A stretch of DNA of 64,000 nucleotides from Defluviitalea saccharophila (lineage in GTDB: Bacteria > Bacillota > Clostridia > Lachnospirales > Defluviitaleaceae). Location: positions 2,108,001 to 2,172,000 of the forward strand of contig NZ_CP121687.1 of assembly GCF_038396635.1 (NCBI RefSeq), in the 5' to 3' direction. Below, piece by piece: positions 42,040 to 58,402 of this stretch. Positions within the stretch are counted from its first letter, which is position 1. The number at the start of each line of letters is the position of its first letter. The notes beneath the pieces are model-generated. The model was given only the letters and a program-made list of their open reading frames with translations, had not been told where the DNA came from and made no database searches. A program made the position numbers and the translations under genes.

Positions 42040-45000
42040 ATGCACAAGAGGATAGTAAGCCTATTTACTGTTTTCTCATTAGTATTGTCCATGCTGATGG
42101 GAGCTTTCCCTGCACAAGTTGCTTATGCAGGAGAAACGTCTGCAGTTCTTCTCGATCAAGAAGAGATAGAATTGCTTGTAGGCGAAGAAGCAATTTTGAC
42201 CGCAGTAGTTGACTCTGACGATATTGCCAATAAAGAAGTATCGTTTACATCCAGCGATGAAACTGTGGCAATAGTAGAGGGAAAAGTATATCACAAAGAC
42301 ACTACTGGAATTAATGAAATTACAATAAAAGCAGTAGGGAAAGGAGAAGCGATTATAACGGCAACAGCTGCCGACGGTGTAACTTCTTCTGCTTGTATTG
42401 TAACGGTAGACGAGCTGGAGCCGCCTGTAAAAGAAGTTGGAGTGTTCATTGACGATTTTGACGATGGCAATGATAACGGATGGACTACATATGCGGCAGA
42501 AGGCGGACAAAATTGGTCTATTAGAGACAACCAGTACAATATCGATGTAAATTGTAATGGTGCCAAATCGATTGCATCAAATACCAATTTTGCTGATTTA
42601 ATTTATGAAGCAGATATAGATGTCTACCAAGGCATTAATTCTGATAATGCGGGACTACTATTCAGAGTGACAGACCCACAACCCAATCAAGGGGATGGGT
42701 ATAAAGGGTATTATGTAGGCATAGACAAAGGACAAAATAAAATCTTGCTTGGCCGCGTTAACAATGGATGGAAAGAATTAGGAAGAGAATCTATTGACAG
42801 AACAATGGGGCACCTGAAAGTTGTAGCAGTAGGCAATCATATTCAAGTCTATTTCAATGATATGGATAACCCTGTCATCGACTGCATCGATGACGACGGA
42901 GACGAAATTACGACAAGGGGAGCTATTGGTATTAGAACCAATTGGGGAAAAGCAAATATTGACAACATATATGTAAGGGAATATTCAGAGGATATTACAG
43001 ATGCTCCTGAGTTTAGCATTGAAGAAGGTGTTTACAGCGAAGAAATAACTGTAAGCATTACTTCTGATTACGATGATGCTGTTATCCGATATACTACCGA
43101 TGGCAGCATGCCCAGTGAGAAATCACCGGTTTACTCTGGAGCGATAACCGTTTCAGACAATACTGTTATTAGGGCTTATGCGCATAAAGAAGGAGCAATG
43201 GCTTCAGAAATCCGTACTGCACAATATATCATAGCAAGTACCGCCGATACATCCATAGATGATTTTGAAGACGGTAATGCGGATGGCTGGACGACTTATG
43301 CAGGCTTTGACACCCATGCCTGGTCAGTACAAGATGGAAAATACGTCGTATCAACACCCAATGGAGACAAAGCTGTATTACAGGAAGATTATACGGATTT
43401 TATTTTAGAAACGGATATTAATCCCTATCAAAGTCCCGACAGCAGCGGAGTAATTTTCAGAGTAAGTGATCCCGGGGATGGCTGCGATAATATGAATGGA
43501 TACTTTGCAGGAATCAATACTAAGGGATTTATTGAAATTGGTAAGATGAACTCAGAAGCCAATAATGGCAGTGGAAACTGGACCGGAATTGCTAAAATCA
43601 TTGCAAATGTAAAGAAGAATCAATACAATCATTTGAAAGTTATCGGAAAGAGAGATAAATTCAGCATATATTTAAACGGAGAATTTGTTGCAGTGTTTAC
43701 AGATTCCGAGTATAAGGATGGAATGGTAGGCCTTAGAGCATGGAATTCACAGGGTGATATTGCCTTTGATAACTTCAAAGTGACAAGTCTTTCTCCTCTT
43801 ATGGAAAAGATTAAAACTCCGGTGATTTCACCTAATGGAGGAAGTTTCAGAGATTCAGAAAATGTTACGATTACATGTGATACCCCTGATGCAGAAATCT
43901 ATTACACCCTGGATGGAACAACACCTACAGAAAATTCTAATGTATACAGCGGATCGATTCTTATTACAGAAACCACTACAGTAAAAGCTATCGCAAAGAA
44001 AAGCGGCATGGAAGAATCTGAGATTGCCAGCGCAACATTTACAAAGCTTTCAGACAGCTTCACAGAAGACTTTGAGGATAAAAATGCGGATGGCTGGATA
44101 ACGTATGAAGGCTCCTGGAGTGCAGCAACCGGTGCATATGTTGTAAATGCCGGAAACGGATTCAAAGCTATTGCCAACGGGACAAACTTCGCTAACTTTA
44201 TTTACGAAGCGGATGTTACAATGATTAACCCCGATAGCGATACCGACAATACAGGATTAATATTTAGGGTTAAAGAACCAACCAATGGAGCAGATAACTT
44301 AAAAGGATATTATGCAGGTATTAAAAACGACGGATTCGTACAAGTCGGACGATTCAACAATAACTGGACAGAGCTTGCCTGTATCCCTTATCCAATCACT
44401 ACAGGCAGCACCTATCGCTTAAAGGTTGAAGCCAAAGGAAAGAATATTGATGTCTATGTGGATGGAGAACATATCGTTAGTGTTGTAGACGAAATGTGGA
44501 CCAGCGGTGCCATAGGTGTTCGTACATGGCAAGTTGGTGCAAGCTATGACAATATTGTTGTAACCGATACAGGAGCGTATACTGATCCGGTTTATGACTG
44601 GTCATGGGTGAAAGGAGCAGTCTTTGTTCCTACCAATGCAGTGAACGAAGTACAACATTGGAAATTCTATGATCCGGAGATTAATGACAGAGAACTTTAT
44701 TATGCCCATATTTATGGACTCAATGCAGTGAGAGTTTATGTTCACTATCTGAACTGGAAAGAAGACAAGGAAAACTTTATGGCTAACCTTGAAGACTTCT
44801 TAACCAGAGCAGACAAATACGGTATAAAAACAGAGCTTGTATTCTTTGATGACTGTTGGGATGATTATCCGGACTGGGAGAAAGAAACTAAAGATCTTGC
44901 GCCTGTTTATGGTGTTCATAACAGCAGATGGCTGGAATCTCCGGGGGATGACATCAAAGCATTATACAATGAAGACATTGAAATCAGAAACAGTTTAAAG

Positions 45001-48000
45001 GCTTATGTTCAAGATATCGTAAACAAATATAAAGACGATGACAGAATATTATTCTGGAATATCTATAATGAGCCCAGCAATGGTGAATCCGGTTTAATGA
45101 ATCAGGTCACAAAGCAGATTATGAATGATGCCCGTATGTGGATTAAGGAGACAGGTACAAAGCACCCTGTTTCTTCAACTGGAGGTTATTTCACAGGGGA
45201 TCCATTCTCCGACTTTATCACATGGCATCCATATGAAGCAGATTATCCTACACCTTATGGCGTAAGAAAAGATATTCTTGCAGACGAATGTATGAACAGA
45301 GGCAGGGATGACAACAACCAAACCGTAAGAGGTATCGTTGAAAACTATTTCAAGAAAGGTATAGGTTTTGTAATGTGGGAATTAGGCATCGGAAGAGACA
45401 ATACGAGATTCCCCTGGGGAGACCCGTTAACAAGCGAACCGGCAGCTCCTTTCCACGGCGTAGTATATCCTGATGGTCATCCATGGGATATTGATGATAT
45501 CAAAGCCCTGACAGAAGAAAATTTCGATAATCTTCCAGTCTTTAGAGTACACTATTTTAAAGACATGGAATTTAAAACCCTTGCTAAAACCTCCATTACA
45601 CCGATGATAGATTTTGATTTGGGAGATGAAAAAGGTACAGGTTCTCCGGATCCTACAGCAGGTATAGGAGAAGACAATTTCTCCATCCGTTGGGCAGGAA
45701 CCATCCAGGCAGAAAACACTGGAGAATATACCTTCTATGTAGACAGCGACAATATCGCAAGAGTATGGATTGGAGAAACACAGCTTATTGATAAAACAAG
45801 TAATCAAAGAGAAGAAGTAAGTGCTAAAATAGCGTTAGAAGGGGGAAAACAGTATTCAGTAAAAGTTGAATACGTTCACGATACAGGAGATGCCAGTATG
45901 CATCTTAAATGGTCAGGTCCAGGCTTTGATAAAACTGCAGTATTGCCTGTATATGTGAATAAAGCTGTAACCTCAATTTCTGTAGAACCGACTGTTTTAG
46001 ATTTAAAAGTAGGTGAAAGTCAAAAACTAACGGCTTACTTAGAACCTATGGATGCATCCAATCAAGATGTGGTATGGAGTTCAAACAAGCCGGGTGTAGC
46101 ATCGGTTGACAAAACCGGTATGGTAACAGGATTAATCGAAGGCACTGCAATCATTACCGTAACGACTGCAGACGGAAGTCATACAGCGACTTGTGAAGTA
46201 ACGGTAAGTCAAGGCAATACCTTCAGAAATCCGATTGTACCGGTTTCCGGACATGCGGGTTCAGCAGATCCAAGCGTAGTATTTAAAGATGGTTACTATT
46301 ACTACTGCAAATCAGACAATGATTCTTCTATTGTTGTTGCTAAAGCAAGAAGATTGCAGGATATAGGCAGTGCACCCCGTGTAACAGTCTTTACACCCCC
46401 TGCCGGAACAGAATATTCAAAAGAAATATGGGCACCCGAGCTGCAATATATACAAGGCAAATGGTATATCTATTTTGCAGCAGACAACGGCAATAATGCC
46501 AATCACCGTATGTATGTCCTTGAAAGCAACACCCAGGATCCACAAGGCACATACACCTTTAAAGGAAAGATAGCAGCCCCTACGGACAGATGGGCAATAG
46601 ATGGTACAGTTCTTGAAACCGATGATGGAGATTTATATTTTGTATGGTCAGGATGGGAAGGTTTTGAAAATGTAAGTCAGAACATTTATATCGCACCAAT
46701 GAGCAATCCATGGACTATCAGCGGTGAAAGAGTGATGATCTCCAAACCGGATCAACCGTGGGAACGTATAGGAACCCCTTATATCAATGAAGGTCCGGAA
46801 ATCCTTAAAAAAGACGGAAAAATATTTATTGTTTATTCTGCCAGCGGAAGCTGGACGGACGATTATTGTCTGGGTATGCTGACCTATTCAGGTGGAGATA
46901 TACTCAATCCATCATCATGGATCAAAGCAGGCCCGGTATTTAGTAAAGTACCAACAGCCTATGGTCCGGGACACAACTGCTTTACTGTATCCCCTGATGG
47001 TACGGAGGACTGGATTGTTTATCACGCAGATAAAAATTCCGGCGGCAGCTGGGAGAACAGAAGTATCCGAGCACAAAAATTCACATGGAATACTGATGGC
47101 ACACCGAATTTTGGCACACCGGTAGCATATGATGAAGAGATACAGGAACCTTCTGGTACTCCAAATGTTATCAGATATAAATATGAAGCAGAACAAGCTG
47201 TGCATGGAGGTAATGTAAAAGTTAACGCTGCAGGCAATGCATCCGGTGGCAAGGTAGCAGGACATATCGATACTATGGGAAGTGATTATGTACTGTTTAA
47301 TATAGAAGCAGAAAAAGCAGGTACCTATATATTATCTGTCATGGCAGCCAACGGCTCTGACGGCGGGGCGATTGCTCAACATGATGTGTCTGTTAACGGA
47401 GGGGAAAGTCAGCTCGTTACTTATAAGAACTACGGATGGAATCACTTTAATCCTTCAACAATTGATGTTGTTTTAAATGAAGGCAACAACACTATTAAGC
47501 TGTCAAAGAGAACAAATTTTGCAGAAATTGATTATATTACACTGGAAGCGGTAGAGAATACTGGAACCCCAGTTCCTGTTGAAGTAGTAAGTATGGATAA
47601 GCAAAACATTACTGTAGGTAAGGGCAAAACTGCAGAACTTACTGCATCCATTAAGCCCGTTTCTGCAATTCATAATGTTGTATGGACTTCCAGCAATCCG
47701 GAAGTGGCTGTGATATCCATAAACAGCACAAATTCAGGGGTAGGAACCATTACCTTTATGGTTACAGGAGTAGTGCCGGGAACGGCAACCATAAAGGTGG
47801 AAAGTACTGAAGATCAAAGCAAACATGCGGAGTGTACTGTAACGGTTCTTGACGATCCGACTGAACCAGATATTTCTTCATTTGTTGTAGATTCATTTGA
47901 GGGCGAAACTTTGGATGGTGCATGGTCCATATTCCAGGAAACTAAAGAAGACTGGAGCTTAACAAAGAATCCCGGTGCACTGACCATCCATACCAGAGCG

Positions 48001-51000
48001 ACTGACGTATATCAAGACAACAATAGTCAGAACAATGTATTCCTAAGAACAATAGACGGAAGCGAAAACTTTGAAATCGTTACTAAAATAACTGCACCTG
48101 TTCGTGCAAACCATCAACAGGGAGGATTATTTGTATGGCAGGATGCTGATAACTTTGTAAAACTTGCTCATGTATGGGATAACGGCAAGACCATAGAAAC
48201 TGCTTATGAAATTAACCAAAAGTATCAAAAGCCAGGAAACTTTGCACCGCATCCGGGAGAAGATACGATTACTTTAAAAATCAAGAAGATAGGCAATGTG
48301 TATACAACCTATTACTGGGACGGCTATGACTGGATTCAGGCGGCAAATTCCTTTACTGCTAATTTGCAGAATGTTAAGGTAGGATTCTTTGCAAACAATA
48401 TTGTAGCAACCAATAGAATTGAAGCGGTATTTGATTACTTTGCTTTTAGAACAATAGAGGGTGGCGTGGAATTAGATAAGCATGCTCTTAAACTCAAGGT
48501 GAACGAAACAGCACAGCTTACCAATAAGAGTGAAAATGCCCAGGAAATTGTTTGGAGTTCAAGCAATCCTGAGGTTGCTTCAGTAGATGCAACAGGCCTT
48601 GTAAAAGCTGTTGCTCCCGGAAGAGCCATCATTAAGGCTATGTCCTTAGAAGAAGATTTCAGTGATGCGTGTGTTGTGACTGTTACATCCTTAGTAGCGG
48701 AGCCGAAAGTTCTGTTTACAGAAGACTTTGGCGATAATAATGCAAACGGCTGGTCTACCTATGGAGGAACATGGCAGGTCATTGACGGACAGTATATGGT
48801 TGATAATGGATCAGGATACAAAGCAGTCTTTGATGAACAAAGCTTTACGGATTATGTATTAGAAGCAGATGTCAAAGTAATCAGCGGTAATGAAGCAGGG
48901 CTCATTTTCAGAGTAAAAAATCCTGAAACAGGAGCAGATGCCTTTGATGGGTATTATCTTGGAATCAATGCAGCAGGCAAATCTGCAGTATTAGGACATA
49001 TGAAGGACAAGAAATGGAATGAGATAGCTATTAGAAATCTTCCTATTTACCATGACCAATGGTACCACTTAAAAGTTGTTGTACATGAAGGACACATTCA
49101 GGCTTATATTAATGATAATCCGCTTAATACCAATGGATATCCGAAGTTTGATGTGCTGGAAACATCCCATTTAACAACTGGAAAGATTGGAGTACGTGCT
49201 CATTTTGCTAATGCAATGTTTGATAACATTAAAGTGTCTTCATATGAGCCGGAAGAAATAAGTGAAAGCTATACAAACTCCGTATTGCCGGGTATTGCTG
49301 ACCCACATGTGCTTTACCATGAAGGCACTTACTATTTATATGGTACCCATACGGCTGACTGGCCGAATATGATCAACGGTATCAAAGTATATACCTCAAA
49401 AGACCTTGTAAACTGGACAGAACACGGATGGGCACTGCATAGAGATAATTCATGGGGCAATAAACAATTCTGGGCACCGGAAGTTATCGAAAAAGACGGC
49501 ACCTTCTATATGTACTATGCCGTAGAAGAACATCTCGCAGTAGCCACAAGCAAATCCCCGCTTGGTCCATTTGTTCAGGAGGTAAAAGCACCAATACATT
49601 ACGATCCTAAAGAGATTGATGCGCACGTCTTTATGGATGACGATGGAAAGATGTATTTCTACTTTGTTCGATTTACTGACGGAAATGTTATCTATGTTGC
49701 GGAATTAAATGAAGATATGAAATCCATTAAAGAAGATACGATAAAAGAAGTATTTAGAGTATCTCAGGATTGGGAAAAGAGTCAAAGAGGAACGGTTGGA
49801 AGAGTCAACGAAGGTCCATTTGTTATTAAACATAAGGGTGTTTATTACATGACATATTCTGCGAACCATTTTGAAAGTCCGGATTATGGTGTAGGATATG
49901 CAACGGCTCCAACCCCAATGGGACCATGGACTAAATATGAATACAACCCAATCATGAAATCCAATGCTCTGGTACCGGGAGCAGGTCATCATTCTTTAAT
50001 TTACTCACCGGATGGTACTGAATTATTTATGGTATACCATACTCATAACAAAGTAGGTACTACGGAGCCAAGAAAACTTGCGATTGATCGCGTGCATTTT
50101 GTACCCCAGGAAAACGGTCCGGATATTATGGAAGTATGGGGACCGACTATGACACCACAGCCAATGCCTTCAAATAAGACAGAGCCAGAACCAGAGCCTG
50201 TAAAGAACACCGATGCAACCTTAAGCTCAATCAAAGTCAATGGGGCAGAATTACCTGGATTTGAACGCAGCAAATATGCTTATACTGTATCCTTGCCGGC
50301 AGGTACAACAAAGGTGCCAACAGTTACAGTAATCACATCTGATGCTAAAGCAACTTATATTATACAAGACGCAAACAAACTACCGGGTACAACCAGTATC
50401 CATGTTACAGCTGAAGACGGAGTAACGAAGAAAGTTTATACAGTAAACTTTACGCTTAAATCAGATCAGGGTGGAGATTCTGGTGATAATGGTTCTGGTG
50501 GTGGAGGTTCCGGTTCCTCTGGAGGAAATGCTCCTGTTAATAAACCAGAAAAACCAAAAGTAGAAGGCAACCAAATCACCTTGCCAAATGTAAAAGCAGA
50601 TACGAAAGGTAACTTAGCATTAGAAGTAAGTGCACAAAGTTTAGAGAATGCAATGAATAATTCAAAAGACAGCACCTTAAGGATCAAAGCAAGCATTGAA
50701 GGAGAAGCAAAAGAAGTAAGTACCAGTCTTCCAGCTAAACAATTAAATGTAGCAAAACAAAAAGGTATAAAGACAGTGGATTTAGATCTGGGCTTTGCAA
50801 CCTTATCCTTTGAACCTGACCTATTTACACAAGATAAAGATGATGCTAAGAACTTAGAGCTTTCCGTAGCAAAAGTAGATATAAGCGAGCTTCCGGAAGA
50901 AGTAAGAACTATCGTAGGAAATGCGCCAGTATATGACTTTAATGCAACGGTAGACGGCAGTAAGGTAAGTAGCTTTGCCGATGGTTATGTCACCATATCC

Positions 51001-51714
51001 CTTGATTATCCTTTAGCAGACATTAACGATCTTCATAAAGTTGTAGTGTACTATATCAGTGATAACGGCACATTAGAAATCGTTAAAGATGTACAATACA
51101 ATGAAGAAACAGGCAAAATCGAATTTAAGGTTTACCATTTCAGTAAATATACTGTTGTAAACCGAAATGTATACTTTAGTGATATCCAGAGACTGGATTG
51201 GGCTAAAGAAAGCATAGAAGCTTTAGCAGCAAGAAATATCATTGACGGAGTAGGCAATAACAAATTTGCTCCAAATGAGAAAGTAACAAGAGCACAGTTT
51301 ATCAAAATGCTTATGAATGCATTGAATCTAGTCAATGAAGATGCAAAGAGCAACTTTACAGATGTTCATAAAGGCACCTGGTATTACAGTGCTGTTGCAT
51401 CCGCTCAGGAACTTGGAATAGTTAACGGAAAGAGCGATGGCAGCTATGGCATCAATGATCAAATTACAAGACAGGAAATGGCAGCAATGGCATACAGAGC
51501 AGCACAGGCAGCGAATATAGAATTAAAAGAAATCATAGGTGCTATGAATTTTGCAGACCAATCCGAAATAGCTTCCTATGCTGAAGAAGCTATAAAAGCA
51601 ATGCAGCAGGTAGGCGTGATAAGCGGAATAGGAGAAAGCAGATTTGCCCCCGGGGATAATGCAACAAGAGCACAAGCCGCTAAGATAATCTACAACTTAT
51701 ATAACTTACAATAG
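42040..51714 (+). CDS. Giant S-layer-anchored multidomain glycoside hydrolase (GH-A + two GH43)
   Basis: 3224 residues. Order (approximate residues): signal peptide 1-31; Big_2 35-127; CBM66/DUF1080-like 137-316; chitobiase C-terminal-like 322-397; CBM66-like 406-586; chitobiase-like 593-672; CBM66-like 674-847; GH clan A TIM-barrel 852-1155 (acid/base Glu1011 in NIYNEP, nucleophile candidate Glu1114 in MWELG); PA14 1167-1307; Big_2 1310-1391; GH43 1393-1710 (Asp1410, Asp1521, Glu1584); CBM6/35 1711-1841; Big_2 1847-1940; ConA-like 1948-2141; Big_2 2143-2220; CBM66-like 2225-2406; second GH43 2411-2711 (Asp2421, Asp2527, Glu2591); cadherin-like 2723-2809; Gly/Ser linker; unknown domain 2841-3045; three SLH domains 3045-3224. 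It likely removes arabinofuranose/xylose from plant polymers at the cell surface. Confidence 0.92.
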   Translation: MHKRIVSLFTVFSLVLSMLMGAFPAQVAYAGETSAVLLDQEEIELLVGEEAILTAVVDSDDIANKEVSFTSSDETVAIVEGKVYHKDTTGINEITIKAVGKGEAIITATAADGVTSSACIVTVDELEPPVKEVGVFIDDFDDGNDNGWTTYAAEGGQNWSIRDNQYNIDVNCNGAKSIASNTNFADLIYEADIDVYQGINSDNAGLLFRVTDPQPNQGDGYKGYYVGIDKGQNKILLGRVNNGWKELGRESIDRTMGHLKVVAVGNHIQVYFNDMDNPVIDCIDDDGDEITTRGAIGIRTNWGKANIDNIYVREYSEDITDAPEFSIEEGVYSEEITVSITSDYDDAVIRYTTDGSMPSEKSPVYSGAITVSDNTVIRAYAHKEGAMASEIRTAQYIIASTADTSIDDFEDGNADGWTTYAGFDTHAWSVQDGKYVVSTPNGDKAVLQEDYTDFILETDINPYQSPDSSGVIFRVSDPGDGCDNMNGYFAGINTKGFIEIGKMNSEANNGSGNWTGIAKIIANVKKNQYNHLKVIGKRDKFSIYLNGEFVAVFTDSEYKDGMVGLRAWNSQGDIAFDNFKVTSLSPLMEKIKTPVISPNGGSFRDSENVTITCDTPDAEIYYTLDGTTPTENSNVYSGSILITETTTVKAIAKKSGMEESEIASATFTKLSDSFTEDFEDKNADGWITYEGSWSAATGAYVVNAGNGFKAIANGTNFANFIYEADVTMINPDSDTDNTGLIFRVKEPTNGADNLKGYYAGIKNDGFVQVGRFNNNWTELACIPYPITTGSTYRLKVEAKGKNIDVYVDGEHIVSVVDEMWTSGAIGVRTWQVGASYDNIVVTDTGAYTDPVYDWSWVKGAVFVPTNAVNEVQHWKFYDPEINDRELYYAHIYGLNAVRVYVHYLNWKEDKENFMANLEDFLTRADKYGIKTELVFFDDCWDDYPDWEKETKDLAPVYGVHNSRWLESPGDDIKALYNEDIEIRNSLKAYVQDIVNKYKDDDRILFWNIYNEPSNGESGLMNQVTKQIMNDARMWIKETGTKHPVSSTGGYFTGDPFSDFITWHPYEADYPTPYGVRKDILADECMNRGRDDNNQTVRGIVENYFKKGIGFVMWELGIGRDNTRFPWGDPLTSEPAAPFHGVVYPDGHPWDIDDIKALTEENFDNLPVFRVHYFKDMEFKTLAKTSITPMIDFDLGDEKGTGSPDPTAGIGEDNFSIRWAGTIQAENTGEYTFYVDSDNIARVWIGETQLIDKTSNQREEVSAKIALEGGKQYSVKVEYVHDTGDASMHLKWSGPGFDKTAVLPVYVNKAVTSISVEPTVLDLKVGESQKLTAYLEPMDASNQDVVWSSNKPGVASVDKTGMVTGLIEGTAIITVTTADGSHTATCEVTVSQGNTFRNPIVPVSGHAGSADPSVVFKDGYYYYCKSDNDSSIVVAKARRLQDIGSAPRVTVFTPPAGTEYSKEIWAPELQYIQGKWYIYFAADNGNNANHRMYVLESNTQDPQGTYTFKGKIAAPTDRWAIDGTVLETDDGDLYFVWSGWEGFENVSQNIYIAPMSNPWTISGERVMISKPDQPWERIGTPYINEGPEILKKDGKIFIVYSASGSWTDDYCLGMLTYSGGDILNPSSWIKAGPVFSKVPTAYGPGHNCFTVSPDGTEDWIVYHADKNSGGSWENRSIRAQKFTWNTDGTPNFGTPVAYDEEIQEPSGTPNVIRYKYEAEQAVHGGNVKVNAAGNASGGKVAGHIDTMGSDYVLFNIEAEKAGTYILSVMAANGSDGGAIAQHDVSVNGGESQLVTYKNYGWNHFNPSTIDVVLNEGNNTIKLSKRTNFAEIDYITLEAVENTGTPVPVEVVSMDKQNITVGKGKTAELTASIKPVSAIHNVVWTSSNPEVAVISINSTNSGVGTITFMVTGVVPGTATIKVESTEDQSKHAECTVTVLDDPTEPDISSFVVDSFEGETLDGAWSIFQETKEDWSLTKNPGALTIHTRATDVYQDNNSQNNVFLRTIDGSENFEIVTKITAPVRANHQQGGLFVWQDADNFVKLAHVWDNGKTIETAYEINQKYQKPGNFAPHPGEDTITLKIKKIGNVYTTYYWDGYDWIQAANSFTANLQNVKVGFFANNIVATNRIEAVFDYFAFRTIEGGVELDKHALKLKVNETAQLTNKSENAQEIVWSSSNPEVASVDATGLVKAVAPGRAIIKAMSLEEDFSDACVVTVTSLVAEPKVLFTEDFGDNNANGWSTYGGTWQVIDGQYMVDNGSGYKAVFDEQSFTDYVLEADVKVISGNEAGLIFRVKNPETGADAFDGYYLGINAAGKSAVLGHMKDKKWNEIAIRNLPIYHDQWYHLKVVVHEGHIQAYINDNPLNTNGYPKFDVLETSHLTTGKIGVRAHFANAMFDNIKVSSYEPEEISESYTNSVLPGIADPHVLYHEGTYYLYGTHTADWPNMINGIKVYTSKDLVNWTEHGWALHRDNSWGNKQFWAPEVIEKDGTFYMYYAVEEHLAVATSKSPLGPFVQEVKAPIHYDPKEIDAHVFMDDDGKMYFYFVRFTDGNVIYVAELNEDMKSIKEDTIKEVFRVSQDWEKSQRGTVGRVNEGPFVIKHKGVYYMTYSANHFESPDYGVGYATAPTPMGPWTKYEYNPIMKSNALVPGAGHHSLIYSPDGTELFMVYHTHNKVGTTEPRKLAIDRVHFVPQENGPDIMEVWGPTMTPQPMPSNKTEPEPEPVKNTDATLSSIKVNGAELPGFERSKYAYTVSLPAGTTKVPTVTVITSDAKATYIIQDANKLPGTTSIHVTAEDGVTKKVYTVNFTLKSDQGGDSGDNGSGGGGSGSSGGNAPVNKPEKPKVEGNQITLPNVKADTKGNLALEVSAQSLENAMNNSKDSTLRIKASIEGEAKEVSTSLPAKQLNVAKQKGIKTVDLDLGFATLSFEPDLFTQDKDDAKNLELSVAKVDISELPEEVRTIVGNAPVYDFNATVDGSKVSSFADGYVTISLDYPLADINDLHKVVVYYISDNGTLEIVKDVQYNEETGKIEFKVYHFSKYTVVNRNVYFSDIQRLDWAKESIEALAARNIIDGVGNNKFAPNEKVTRAQFIKMLMNALNLVNEDAKSNFTDVHKGTWYYSAVASAQELGIVNGKSDGSYGINDQITRQEMAAMAYRAAQAANIELKEIIGAMNFADQSEIASYAEEAIKAMQQVGVISGIGESRFAPGDNATRAQAAKIIYNLYNLQ

Positions 51715-54626: not shown

Positions 54627-55619
54627 TTAATTATATTTTTTAAGTATTCGTATATCTGTTCCGATAAATTTCAACGCTTTATAGTTTCCAAACACCCTGG
54701 ATACAATTCTTTCGGAATATTGCTTTTGCCAGTCATTAGGAGAGAGGTTTGTAGAGATTATGGTAGGCTTTCTGTCAAGGAGCCTTGCATTGAGACAGTT
54801 AAAGAGTTCTGCTCCGGTAAGGGCGGTATTAAATTCTGTGCCTAAATCGTCAATAATAAGCAAGTCCACCGTAAAAATGGCGTCAAGATAGGCCTTGGAA
54901 TCTTCATTTTCTTCTTTACGAAATCTTTCCTGTTCAAAAAGCTTAAAAAGCTGAAAGGCCGTTAAGTAAAGTACGGTTTTTCCGCGATCTAAGAGGTCTT
55001 TTGCAATACAGTTACATAAAAAAGTTTTCCCGAGGCCGGGATCTCCGTAAAAGATCATATTGTTGAAGGTATCATCAAATTCGTCTACAAATCGGATGCA
55101 ATGGCTGTAAATATTTTTAATGTTTTCTCTCGGAGAGATATTGGCCTGAGGATGAATTTCATCGGAGTAATAACCAAAATTAAAGTTTTCAAAATTCTCT
55201 ACGGACAAGATATCCTTTAAATTGGATTGGTCATAGGCTACATCAATAAGAGCCTGCTTAAAGCAGTGACATGGGGAATTATTAATATAACCCGTATCCT
55301 TGCAGTCGGAGCAGCTATAGGAAGGCTCTAAATAATCTTTATCATATCCATTAACGTATAAAAGCTCTGCTTTTTCAATGACTAAATCTAAGTTCCGCTG
55401 CTCTAAAGATTTGATCAATTCATCCGCTTTTTCAGGATACTGCAAAACAAGCTTTGAAACCTCTATACCGGTAGAGGAAAGGATTCTATCTATCTCAGCA
55501 ATCCTGGGGATTCTGGCATATACTTCTTCCTGTCTGGCTTTTAATCGCCTGTTTGACATGTCCCTTTTGATTTCATAATCCCTCAGGATTTTTTTGTACT
55601 GATTTTCTTTTACCGTCAT
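54627..55619 (-). CDS. dnaI: DnaI/DnaC-like helicase loader (AAA+)
   Basis: 330 residues. N-terminal basic helical region, a Cys cluster YSCSDCKDTGYINNSPCHCFKQ as in DnaI zinc domains, then an AAA+ domain with Walker A FYGDPGLGKTFLCN and Walker B LLIIDDLGTEF. Loads the replicative helicase. ATG 55619 sits 6 nt after AGGCAGGTG; a GTG at 55628 overlapping the upstream stop is an alternative. Directly downstream of a DnaD-like gene. Confidence 0.9.
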   Translation of the reverse strand: MTVKENQYKKILRDYEIKRDMSNRRLKARQEEVYARIPRIAEIDRILSSTGIEVSKLVLQYPEKADELIKSLEQRNLDLVIEKAELLYVNGYDKDYLEPSYSCSDCKDTGYINNSPCHCFKQALIDVAYDQSNLKDILSVENFENFNFGYYSDEIHPQANISPRENIKNIYSHCIRFVDEFDDTFNNMIFYGDPGLGKTFLCNCIAKDLLDRGKTVLYLTAFQLFKLFEQERFRKEENEDSKAYLDAIFTVDLLIIDDLGTEFNTALTGAELFNCLNARLLDRKPTIISTNLSPNDWQKQYSERIVSRVFGNYKALKFIGTDIRILKKYN

Positions 55620-55624
55620 CCATA

Positions 55625-56710
55625 TCACCTGCCTTCAGAAAGCTGTTTACTAAGATATTCTCTTTCTAACCGTTCTAACTCATCAAAATCCCAATTCCTT
55701 TGCTTAAAGTTTACGAATTTACTAGGTTTTGAATAATAATCCGCTGTTTGAGAATCACTGGAATTAGAACCATTTTGCATAGTTTTCTTTTGAAGATATG
55801 CAGCGTCTAATTTTTCAATGTCTTCCAGGGATTTCACTTTATTTTTTGCCCAACTCTTTAATATAGAATCGGTATACTGAAAGCTTGGTTTTTGAGTTTG
55901 AGCAATGGTTCTTCTGCACGCCTCTAAAATAATATCTAAAGCAAAAGTACTGATCCATTTATCCATACATTCAATCTCAGAAGGGGCAGGGTCTCTATTG
56001 GTCAGCCCAAAGCATTTCATGATTTCCCTGTAATCGTTATTAAATACTTTCATTCTGGCTTTGGCTTTTTCAACGGTAGTAATCCCTTCTTCTACCCAGG
56101 TAATGGCCACCTTCTCGATATATCGAATGCTTCTATGGTTATTAGAGATGCAGTGCTCCAATAAAAGTTCTATCACATCTAAAGGCAGTCTTAGCCAATC
56201 GTATAAGCTATATAAAATCTTTAAATCGTTGTGATTTAACATTCGCCCTAAATATCTTTCAGCAATCTTAAAAAGCTGACTGATTTCAGGATTTTTCATG
56301 TAAATTGTTAATTCTTCCGGGCTATAGTCCGGCTTTGATTCTAAATGAATATGTACGTTTTTATTTTCAACAGCAGCGTTAGGAAGCTCAACTTTAGGAT
56401 TCGGTTCCGTAGAAGACACTGGCATACGATAGGCAATATAAATATTATCGTCATCATGCCATTCAAAATCCATCAGGCCTTGCTCTTTCCAATATTGGAA
56501 TGCCTTTATGACATCCGATTCTAATAAGTCCAGTTTTTCTGCCATTTCTTTCGAGGTGAGATTGTGTTGGCAGTGGTAGCAAAAGCGATAGCCGTATAAA
56601 TACACTTTAACAAAATTTCCATTTGCTTTTGGCATATAGGTATCAATAAATTCATTGGAAATTGGTGTTGTGGATAATTCTAGATTGTTTTTAATATTTA
56701 GAATCGCCAT
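55625..56710 (-). CDS. DnaD/DnaB-like replication initiation protein
   Basis: 361 residues. N-terminal winged helix (NLTSKEMAEKLDLLESDVIKAFQYWKEQGLMDFEW), a DnaD/DnaB_2 domain (LTIYMKNPEISQLFKIAERYLGRMLNHNDLKILYSLYDWLRLPLDVIELLLEHC) and a second, similar segment near 235-310. Start ATG 56710 because AAAGGAGGG precedes it; a TTG at 56731 lies before that site. Forms the primosome with the DnaI-like protein, with which it overlaps by 3 nt at the GTGA. Its promoter region faces a DnaA-box cluster. Confidence 0.85.
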   Translation of the reverse strand: MAILNIKNNLELSTTPISNEFIDTYMPKANGNFVKVYLYGYRFCYHCQHNLTSKEMAEKLDLLESDVIKAFQYWKEQGLMDFEWHDDDNIYIAYRMPVSSTEPNPKVELPNAAVENKNVHIHLESKPDYSPEELTIYMKNPEISQLFKIAERYLGRMLNHNDLKILYSLYDWLRLPLDVIELLLEHCISNNHRSIRYIEKVAITWVEEGITTVEKAKARMKVFNNDYREIMKCFGLTNRDPAPSEIECMDKWISTFALDIILEACRRTIAQTQKPSFQYTDSILKSWAKNKVKSLEDIEKLDAAYLQKKTMQNGSNSSDSQTADYYSKPSKFVNFKQRNWDFDELERLEREYLSKQLSEGR

Positions 56711-56748: not shown

Positions 56749-56762
56749 ATTATACCATATTC
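56749..56762 (-). promoter_or_regulatory. Extended -10 promoter of the dnaD-dnaI pair
   Basis: On the minus strand ATGG precedes TATAAT (56754-56749); -35 not clear. The tandem DnaA boxes lie about 80-100 bp upstream of it. Confidence 0.55.
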
Positions 56763-56832
56763 TTTTTGGAATGTTTATAAAAGAAAATTTAGACTTCTAT
56801 AATTCTATACACATTCATTATGTTAATAACTT

Positions 56833-57016
56833 TGTGGATAATGTGGATAAGTTAACACAATACCCGTATATTTTTGGATATAAAATTCCCAAAAGGCTAA
56901 GCTTTTGGGAATCAAAACTGCTGTAAAAATGTGGAATTTAAGGTTTGTTAAAGAGGAAATTATTCACATGATATCTTTTGAGATTCTGTTGACAATTCTG
57001 TGGATAATGTGGATAA
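56833..57016. promoter_or_regulatory. DnaA-box cluster
   Basis: Five boxes: TGTGGATAA at 56833-56841 and 56842-56850 (tandem), TTATTCACA at 56960-56968 (opposite direction, at the murC stop), and TGTGGATAA at 56999-57007 and 57008-57016 (tandem, inside murC). The four are perfect TTATCCACA boxes; the fifth fits TTATNCACA. A near-match CTATACACA lies at 56805-56813 in an AT-rich stretch. Confidence 0.75.
56885..56912 (-). terminator. Hairpin downstream of murC, probable terminator
   Basis: ATTCCCAAAAG (56885-56895) pairs perfectly with CTTTTGGGAAT (56902-56912). On the minus strand TTTTATAT follows, a moderate U-tract after murC. Confidence 0.6.
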
Positions 57017-58402
57017 ATTGGTTCCTAAAAGGTCTTCGCCTATTGTATTCACATCTCCAGCCCCCATAGTTATCAACAGGTCCCCTGGGATACAATTTTG
57101 TAAAAGAAAATTTTCTATGGACTCAAAATCTGAGAAGTAATATGCTTTTTTTCCTAATTTTTCAATTTCTCTTTGTAAATCCTTTGAGTGTACTTCACCT
57201 AAATCTTTTTCACGGGCGGCATAAATATCTGTTAAAATGATGTGATCCGCTGCTGTTAAGGCTTCGGCAAATTCCTTTAAAAATGCCTTAGTTCTTGAAT
57301 AAGTATGGGGTTGGAACACACACCATAATCTATTGTGGGGATAACGATTTGCCACGGCCAGGGTAGCTTTTATTTCTGTGGGGTGGTGGGCATAATCGTC
57401 CACGACGGTAATCCCTTTTAGATCCCCTTTAATCTCAAATCGCTGATGGGTGCCCACAAATTTTTTTAATCCATTTGCCATATCTTCTACGGATATATCT
57501 AATGCATGGGCACAGGCACAAGCGGCAAGGGCATTATAAATATTATGAATACCCGGTACACTTAAAGAAATTCTGCCCATGTTTTTTCCTTGATAAAATA
57601 AATCAAAGCTTCCGCAGGCTTTTTCATTATAGGAAATATTGGCGGCAGTCCACATCACACGACTGGCATCGGTACCAAAGGTGATTACCCTGCAATTCAC
57701 TTCATCCAGTATGGCATGGATATTTTCTATGTCGCCGTTAATCACCAATGCGCCCTCTCTGGGGATTCTTTTTGCAAAAGCAGTAAAGGATTTCATGATA
57801 TGATGAATATCTTTAAAATAATCCAGATGATCTTCTTCGATATTTAAAATAATGCCTATGTAAGGATAGAATTTAAGAAAACTATCACAGTATTCACAGG
57901 CTTCGGTAATAAAATAATCAGAATGGCCCGTACGGATATTTCCCCCTATGGCATCTAATATGCCTCCTACGGATATGGTAGGATCTTTTTTAGTTTCCAA
58001 TAAAATATGGGATAACATAGAGGTTGTTGTAGTTTTTCCGTGGGTTCCGGAAACTGCTATGGCATAAGGATAATTCTTCATAATCTGGCCAAGGAATTCT
58101 GCGCGGTCCATCGTAGGGATATTCTTTTTTCTGGCTTCCATAAGCTCAGGGTTATCTTCTTTAACAGCTGCCGTATAAACCACGAGGTCCAAATCCTCTT
58201 TAATATTTGAAGGCAAATGCCCTAAATGAAAGTCAACTCCCAGTTGCTCCAAATGACGGGTGATTTTGGAGTTTTTCATGTCAGAACCGGATACTTTAAA
58301 CCCCTTTTTTACGAGGATTTCTGCCAAGCCGCTCATACTGATACCGCCAATGCCTATGAAATGGATCTTTTGATTGGTGTTTTCAAAATTAATATCTAGC
58401 AT
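56960..58402 (-). CDS. murC: UDP-N-acetylmuramate--L-alanine ligase
   Basis: 480 residues. IHFIGIGGISMSGLAEILVKKG, ATP loop VSGTHGKTTTTSMLSHIL, and VDDYAHHPTEIKATL are intact MurC motifs; it adds L-alanine to UDP-MurNAc. ATG 58402 is preceded by AGAGGTG. The C-terminus NLSTLSTELSTESQ is odd: its Leu-Ser-Thr repeats are encoded by DnaA boxes, suggesting a coding tail shaped by a DNA signal. Divergent from purR. Confidence 0.95.
   Translation of the reverse strand: MLDINFENTNQKIHFIGIGGISMSGLAEILVKKGFKVSGSDMKNSKITRHLEQLGVDFHLGHLPSNIKEDLDLVVYTAAVKEDNPELMEARKKNIPTMDRAEFLGQIMKNYPYAIAVSGTHGKTTTTSMLSHILLETKKDPTISVGGILDAIGGNIRTGHSDYFITEACEYCDSFLKFYPYIGIILNIEEDHLDYFKDIHHIMKSFTAFAKRIPREGALVINGDIENIHAILDEVNCRVITFGTDASRVMWTAANISYNEKACGSFDLFYQGKNMGRISLSVPGIHNIYNALAACACAHALDISVEDMANGLKKFVGTHQRFEIKGDLKGITVVDDYAHHPTEIKATLAVANRYPHNRLWCVFQPHTYSRTKAFLKEFAEALTAADHIILTDIYAAREKDLGEVHSKDLQREIEKLGKKAYYFSDFESIENFLLQNCIPGDLLITMGAGDVNTIGEDLLGTNLSTLSTELSTESQKISCE

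Follow-up and report, generated by a model that had tools for sequence, protein, structure and literature searches.

Tandem DnaA-box modules at the murC-dnaD junction of Defluviitalea saccharophila: a probable DnaA-responsive operator of the primosome genes dnaD and dnaI

Genes and DnaA boxes at the murC-dnaD junction

The window (that is, the whole stretch of DNA analysed: 64,000 nucleotides, positions 2108001-2172000 of the single-contig, 3,014,560-bp genome of Defluviitalea saccharophila) carries on its reverse strand murC, a dnaD-like gene and a dnaI-like gene (Table 1). Judging from conservation, the start codon of dnaD is probably the ATG at 56708-56710. The dnaD promoter listed in Table 1, like all the dnaD promoters mentioned throughout, is a prediction from the sequence. 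A PurR gene was also identified in the window by profile, and one open reading frame of 3224 aa (42040-51714) apparently encodes a large secreted multidomain protein, with apparent carbohydrate-active and S-layer-like repeats near its end.

Genome-wide statistics of boxes and 18-mers were obtained by pattern searches. Shuffling predicts 3.27 exact TTATNCACA boxes in the window, and not one shuffle out of 100 gave as many as the nine that are present; six of these nine sites are packed into 350 bp at the murC-dnaD junction. An exact-match scan recovered the five perfect DnaA boxes which a preliminary description of this DNA had placed within 56833-57016; they start at 56833, 56842, 56999 and 57008 on the reverse strand and at 56960 on the forward strand. 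The other observations of that description were likewise borne out: (i) the tandem 18-mer TGTGGATAATGTGGATAA is found at both 56833-56850 and 56999-57016; (ii) the box reported at the murC stop, TTATTCACA, overlaps the stop codon; and (iii) the MurC C-terminal residues NLSTLSTELST are the translation of the boxes, the third LST corresponding to the degenerate box TTGTCAACA. A sixth box, TTATCCACA, which the description lacked, lies inside the 5' end of dnaD; among the relatives' loci compared, it is present in L023, L024 and L027, and was not found in L026, L028 and L029.

The 18-mer TTATCCACATTATCCACA has exactly two copies in the 3.01-Mb genome, both of them at the murC-dnaD locus, where they form a proximal and a distal module. 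The helical register of the proximal module with respect to the -10 hexamer matches that of relatives. Between both modules lies a terminator-like hairpin.

Table 1. Features of the murC-dnaD locus (positions are those of the window).
Feature	Position	Strand	Remarks
dnaI-like gene, DnaC/DnaI-type AAA+ helicase loader	54627..55628	-	NF005304 (406.9 bits), PF01695, PF00308
dnaD-like gene, two DnaB_2/DnaD domains	55625..56710	-	PF07261 (1.4e-38), TIGR01446; overlaps dnaI
Sixth DnaA box, TTATCCACA	56669-56677	-	exact match inside dnaD 5' end; codons ELSTT
Predicted dnaD promoter, -10 TATAAT	56749..56754	-	invariant in seven family genomes
Predicted dnaD promoter, -35 TAAACA	56772..56777	-	17-bp spacer; invariant in seven family genomes
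Degenerate third box, TTATTAACA	56821..56829	-	3 bp past the proximal pair; kept in family alignment
Proximal module, two head-to-tail DnaA boxes, TTATCCACATTATCCACA	56833..56850	-	exact match; module end 78 bp from dnaD -10
Hairpin GATTCCCAAAAG..CTTTTGGGAATT, then TTTTAT; likely murC terminator	56884..56913	-	MFE -14.5, z=-3.3; family-conserved
murC, UDP-N-acetylmuramate--L-alanine ligase	56960..58402	-	TIGR01082 (499.9 bits); distal module at 3' end
Inverted DnaA box, TTATTCACA	56960..56968	+	overlaps murC stop codon; invariant in family
Degenerate third box, TTGTCAACA	56987..56995	-	3 bp past the distal pair
Distal module, tandem DnaA boxes in murC 3' end	56999..57016	-	exact match; codes for LSTLST

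Modules and promoter spacing across the order

In 65 murC-dnaD intergenic regions from Lachnospirales-type genomes, 197 DnaA boxes were counted, versus 2.63 expected from dinucleotide shuffles. At least one box is present in 60 of these linked regions and at least two in 53; in the coding sequences on either side, these loci contain 20 boxes (murC bodies) and a single one (dnaD bodies). Boxes upstream of dnaD, at this density above chance and conserved together with the gene, are the pattern of a DnaA-controlled promoter. They recur at the level of the genus and of the family, and in many of the order's families: the exact 18-mer was found in 83 of 295 genomes in a whole-order scan, many of the copies lying just upstream of dnaD and in dnaD orientation, and 70 of 80 new loci from one large family have at least one box. 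Conservation in relatives, on which the preliminary description had made its reading depend, was found. Among sequences from the class's other orders, all 27 sampled murC 3' ends are free of boxes, and only two of the sampled dnaD upstream regions are box-bearing, with a single box each. At a closer range, 43 of 54 box columns are invariant among seven genomes of the window's family, versus 95 of 211 columns in the remaining intergenic region. In this family the promoter and the boxes are invariant, and in two species an insertion has lengthened the DNA between them by roughly one helical turn.

The anatomy of the modules was studied in 200 distinct murC loci by scanning for tandem pairs with up to two mismatches over 18 bp. 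A tandem pair occurs in 133 of these loci and two pairs in 87. The distal module keeps a fixed position at the murC stop (distance from stop to module start: median 0, IQR 0-0). In 81 loci the first pair begins immediately past the stop codon, and in most other families the distal module starts exactly at the stop, the codon directly adjoining the first box (e.g., loci L177-L189). The window's family, together with a few more, has the distal pair inside the end of murC instead, where its translation is LSTLST; 24 of the 37 LST motifs at such murC ends are exactly TTATCCACA. Immediately before the distal pair stands a G in 73% of cases, at what is usually the third position of the stop codon; this yields the ten-base form GTTATCCACA, the form preferred by DnaA. 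Because the stop codon abuts the first box and because of this frequent G, the murC stop codon seems to have been shaped by the DnaA binding site. A degenerate third box resembling TTNTCAACA, 3 bp past the distal pair, recurs in 110 distal modules. The distance between modules has a median of 161 bp (IQR 155-165) and shows peaks close to 155, 165 and 176 bp; its periodicity of about 11 bp (R 0.47-0.53 after thinning) is suggestive only.

The position of the proximal module relative to the dnaD promoter follows a helical rule. From the module end to the -35 hexamer, most two-module genomes have 25, 35, 45-48, 55-56 or 66 bp; when the -10 (TATAAT) alone is taken, without a -35, the distances are mostly 49, 58-60, 67-71, 78-79 or 89 bp. 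After thinning at 80% MurC identity, the phasing reaches R=0.76 at 10.1 bp (n=31), and after thinning at 65% it reaches R=0.83 (n=15), with a jitter p<2e-4 in the discovery set. As a control, the distance from the -10 to the start codon shows no phasing (R=0.17), and shuffled intergenic controls gave a mean R of 0.22 and a maximum of 0.33. The MurC tree implies a minimum of 27 changes of register. When 31 phylogenetically independent pairs (i.e., pairs whose paths share no branch) were compared, 15 differed by 0-1 bp, seven by 9-12 bp, none by 2-8 bp and nine by more than 12 bp.

After the discovery set, the rule was fixed: (i) the last tandem module; (ii) the nearest TATAAT-like hexamer; (iii) a period of 10.0; and (iv) the phase taken from discovery. 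It was likewise the discovery set, with its only weakly phased single-module genomes, that led to the restriction to two-module genomes. A first held-out sample included few two-module genomes and had little power (all genomes, n=9, p=0.36; two-module genomes, n=6, p=0.028). A second one, with one genome per genus of one large family, provided 27 two-module distances and followed the phase (V=0.72, p<5e-5); among these distances were 49 (three times), 58-60 (four times), 67-71 (16 times) and 79, with outliers at 93, 97 and 126. The 12 single-module genomes of that second sample did not follow it (p=0.29). In discovery and held-out sets alike, the geometry of boxes and predicted promoter is constrained in two-module genomes. 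A weak -35 as a sign of activator dependence was considered too and rejected: linked and detached dnaD promoters show no difference in the quality of their -35 hexamers.

Possible roles of the boxes

The element probably serves the dnaD-dnaI primosome operon as a DnaA operator made of two modules. Control of these genes by DnaA was one of the roles put forward in the preliminary description, and it is well supported by the order-wide conservation and the helical phasing to the promoter. DnaA would bind the high-affinity head-to-tail pair plus the degenerate third box, approximately 60-110 bp upstream of the predicted dnaD start site, and in most two-module species this proximal DnaA would sit on the helix face of RNA polymerase in the style of a class-I activator, the CRP-type spacing of such activators being the comparison for this placement. 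A further DnaA complex, which would loop to the proximal one or cooperate with it, probably occupies the identical pair at the murC stop, in most cases 155-166 bp farther upstream. In this way, DnaA activity would set the supply of DnaD and of the helicase loader that DnaA itself recruits. Regarding the sign of the regulation, activation is slightly favoured over repression. An order-wide feed-forward circuit, in which DnaA would be a face-of-the-helix, class-I-type activator of its own helicase-loader operon through two looping tandem-box modules, one of them fused to the murC stop codon, with loader supply and perhaps free DnaA depending on a single nucleoprotein complex, is a tentative extension towards which we lean somewhat less than away from it.

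Repression of dnaD-dnaI by the phased DnaA site, for instance through looping between modules, is a sub-case of the operator reading, overlaps with the confidence placed in it, and is rather doubtful. The peaks in module distance recall loop-forming operators and, in B. subtilis, DnaA activates sda and is known to repress several genes, ywlC and vpr among them (PMC4447404); nevertheless, the predicted promoter is not covered by the proximal module, which is placed upstream of it, the usual position of an activator.

A rival reading, which is unlikely, holds that the boxes are an extra-origin DnaA sink or timing element anchored at the murC 3' end, comparable to the six DnaA-box clusters of B. 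subtilis or to datA of E. coli, dnaD being merely a neighbour. Boxes are found after murC in 14 of the 26 genomes with dnaD elsewhere (12 of 24 when G258 and G271, both chosen for carrying the 18-mer, are left out), and nine of the box-keeping detached murC 3' ends precede a convergent gene; truly detached dnaD loci have boxes in two of about 20 cases. Genus g115, in which pepF follows murC, retains both intact modules between the two genes, with 42 of 45 box columns invariant versus 59 of 227 other columns. The locking of the distal module to the murC stop and the tendency of the locus, in complete relatives, to be found in the part of the chromosome nearer the origin (some 0.1 to 1.26 Mb from dnaA) also speak for a sink. 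Since boxes persist at detached murC ends, the murC-anchored boxes would have, or would recently have had, a role free of dnaD, most simply that of a cluster bound by DnaA, comparable to the B. subtilis clusters. A pure dnaD operator is weakened by the boxes staying with murC after dnaD has moved. In other detached lineages, the boxes have been lost from the murC 3' ends. Against a sink stands the strong and replicated helical phasing to the dnaD promoter, for which a sink has no need; moreover, boxes are commoner where dnaD follows murC (60 of 65 versus 12 of 24). It was the promoter phasing that changed our reading from a pure DnaA sink to control of dnaD. In our view, linked genomes likely use the element mainly to control dnaD-dnaI, and it may act as a sink as well. 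The DnaA titration proposed in the preliminary description may likewise accompany such control, given the boxes at dnaD-less murC ends, some of them between convergent genes. That pepF is the true target in genus g115 is improbable, since upstream of pepF boxes are absent in most families tested; the window's own family, however, has a different cluster there, with 11-bp spacing, which leaves pepF control in g115 a slight possibility. In the window's genome four DnaA boxes with 11-bp spacing are located upstream of pepF (oligoendopeptidase F) at 2064732-2064773 (L015, L314), and similar arrays upstream of pepF were seen in several genomes of the window's family and in none of the other families tested.

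Chance, or neutral inheritance of repeats in AT-rich intergenic DNA, is extremely improbable. Some related genomes do share positions through descent; against this, the 197 boxes compare with 2.6 expected, conservation is above that of the flanks, and the spacing is quantised in independent pairs and held-out genera. Chance is ruled out by the shuffles and the held-out test.

Finally, the preliminary description had considered an origin-like element, without claiming an oriC, a suggestion that finds no support. The dnaA gene is at 1,912,981-1,914,288, in a locus with a 14-box cluster, and the murC-dnaD locus (2,164,833) is 252 kb off, not next to dnaA/dnaN at the replication start as an oriC would be. 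A secondary replication origin at murC-dnaD could be imagined from the perfect boxes, the AT-rich DNA and the adjacent helicase-loader genes, but is hardly credible given the distant dnaA cluster, the absence of the tandem 9+9 module from most oriC loci of complete relatives and the phasing of the module to a promoter at the murC-dnaD locus. Two more three-box clusters lie outside oriC in the window's genome, at 1426427-1426456 and 2418907-2418936 (L008, L019).

Related DnaA systems

As in the DnaA-regulated promoters of B. subtilis (sda, ywlC, vpr) and E. coli (nrdAB), box clusters are here located upstream of a gene tied to the state of replication (PMC4447404, PMC8203912). The present case differs from them in its dnaD-dnaI target, its head-to-tail 9+9 modules and its order-wide quantised promoter distance. 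Neither dnaD nor dnaI appears as a target among the named or top-ranked DnaA sites of B. subtilis (PMC4447404) or in a review (PMC8203912). In Caulobacter, a helicase gene is likewise regulated by DnaA, since dnaB, which encodes the replicative helicase, belongs to the DnaA regulon (PMC8203912); it differs from dnaD-dnaI in gene, phylum and site layout. In a full-text literature search, with most subscription papers outside its reach, no description of this arrangement of boxes before dnaD-dnaI was found. The dnaB operon of B. subtilis has reportedly been discussed as a possible DnaA target.

With several strong DnaA boxes outside oriC, the murC-dnaD locus also resembles the DnaA-box clusters (DBCs) of B. 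subtilis. One of these DBCs is downstream of both gcp and ydiF, like some of the detached murC clusters, which lie between convergent genes, and the joint removal of six DBCs advances initiation (PMC5295017, PMC13220808). Unlike in the DBCs, promoter phasing points here to transcription control, and the murC position is specific to the order. The datA and DARS loci of E. coli are likewise DnaA-box loci away from the origin, but they need IHF/Fis and act on the nucleotide state of DnaA (PMC5295017).

The matching of initiator activity to helicase-loader supply has been little studied beyond E. coli and B. subtilis. Boxes fixed before the loader genes suggest that the initiator may also set the amount of helicase loader, and the murC-dnaD locus predicts a direct transcriptional link between DnaA and the loader in a large order of gut bacteria. 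In addition, helical phasing would be a comparative-genomics signature of DnaA acting together with RNA polymerase, which could be used to find further DnaA targets.

Several of the order's genomes (L061, L062, L064, L066, L069 and L070) also carry the same exact 18-mer within the hpf-secA region or close to it, this region being a second recurrent tandem-box site.
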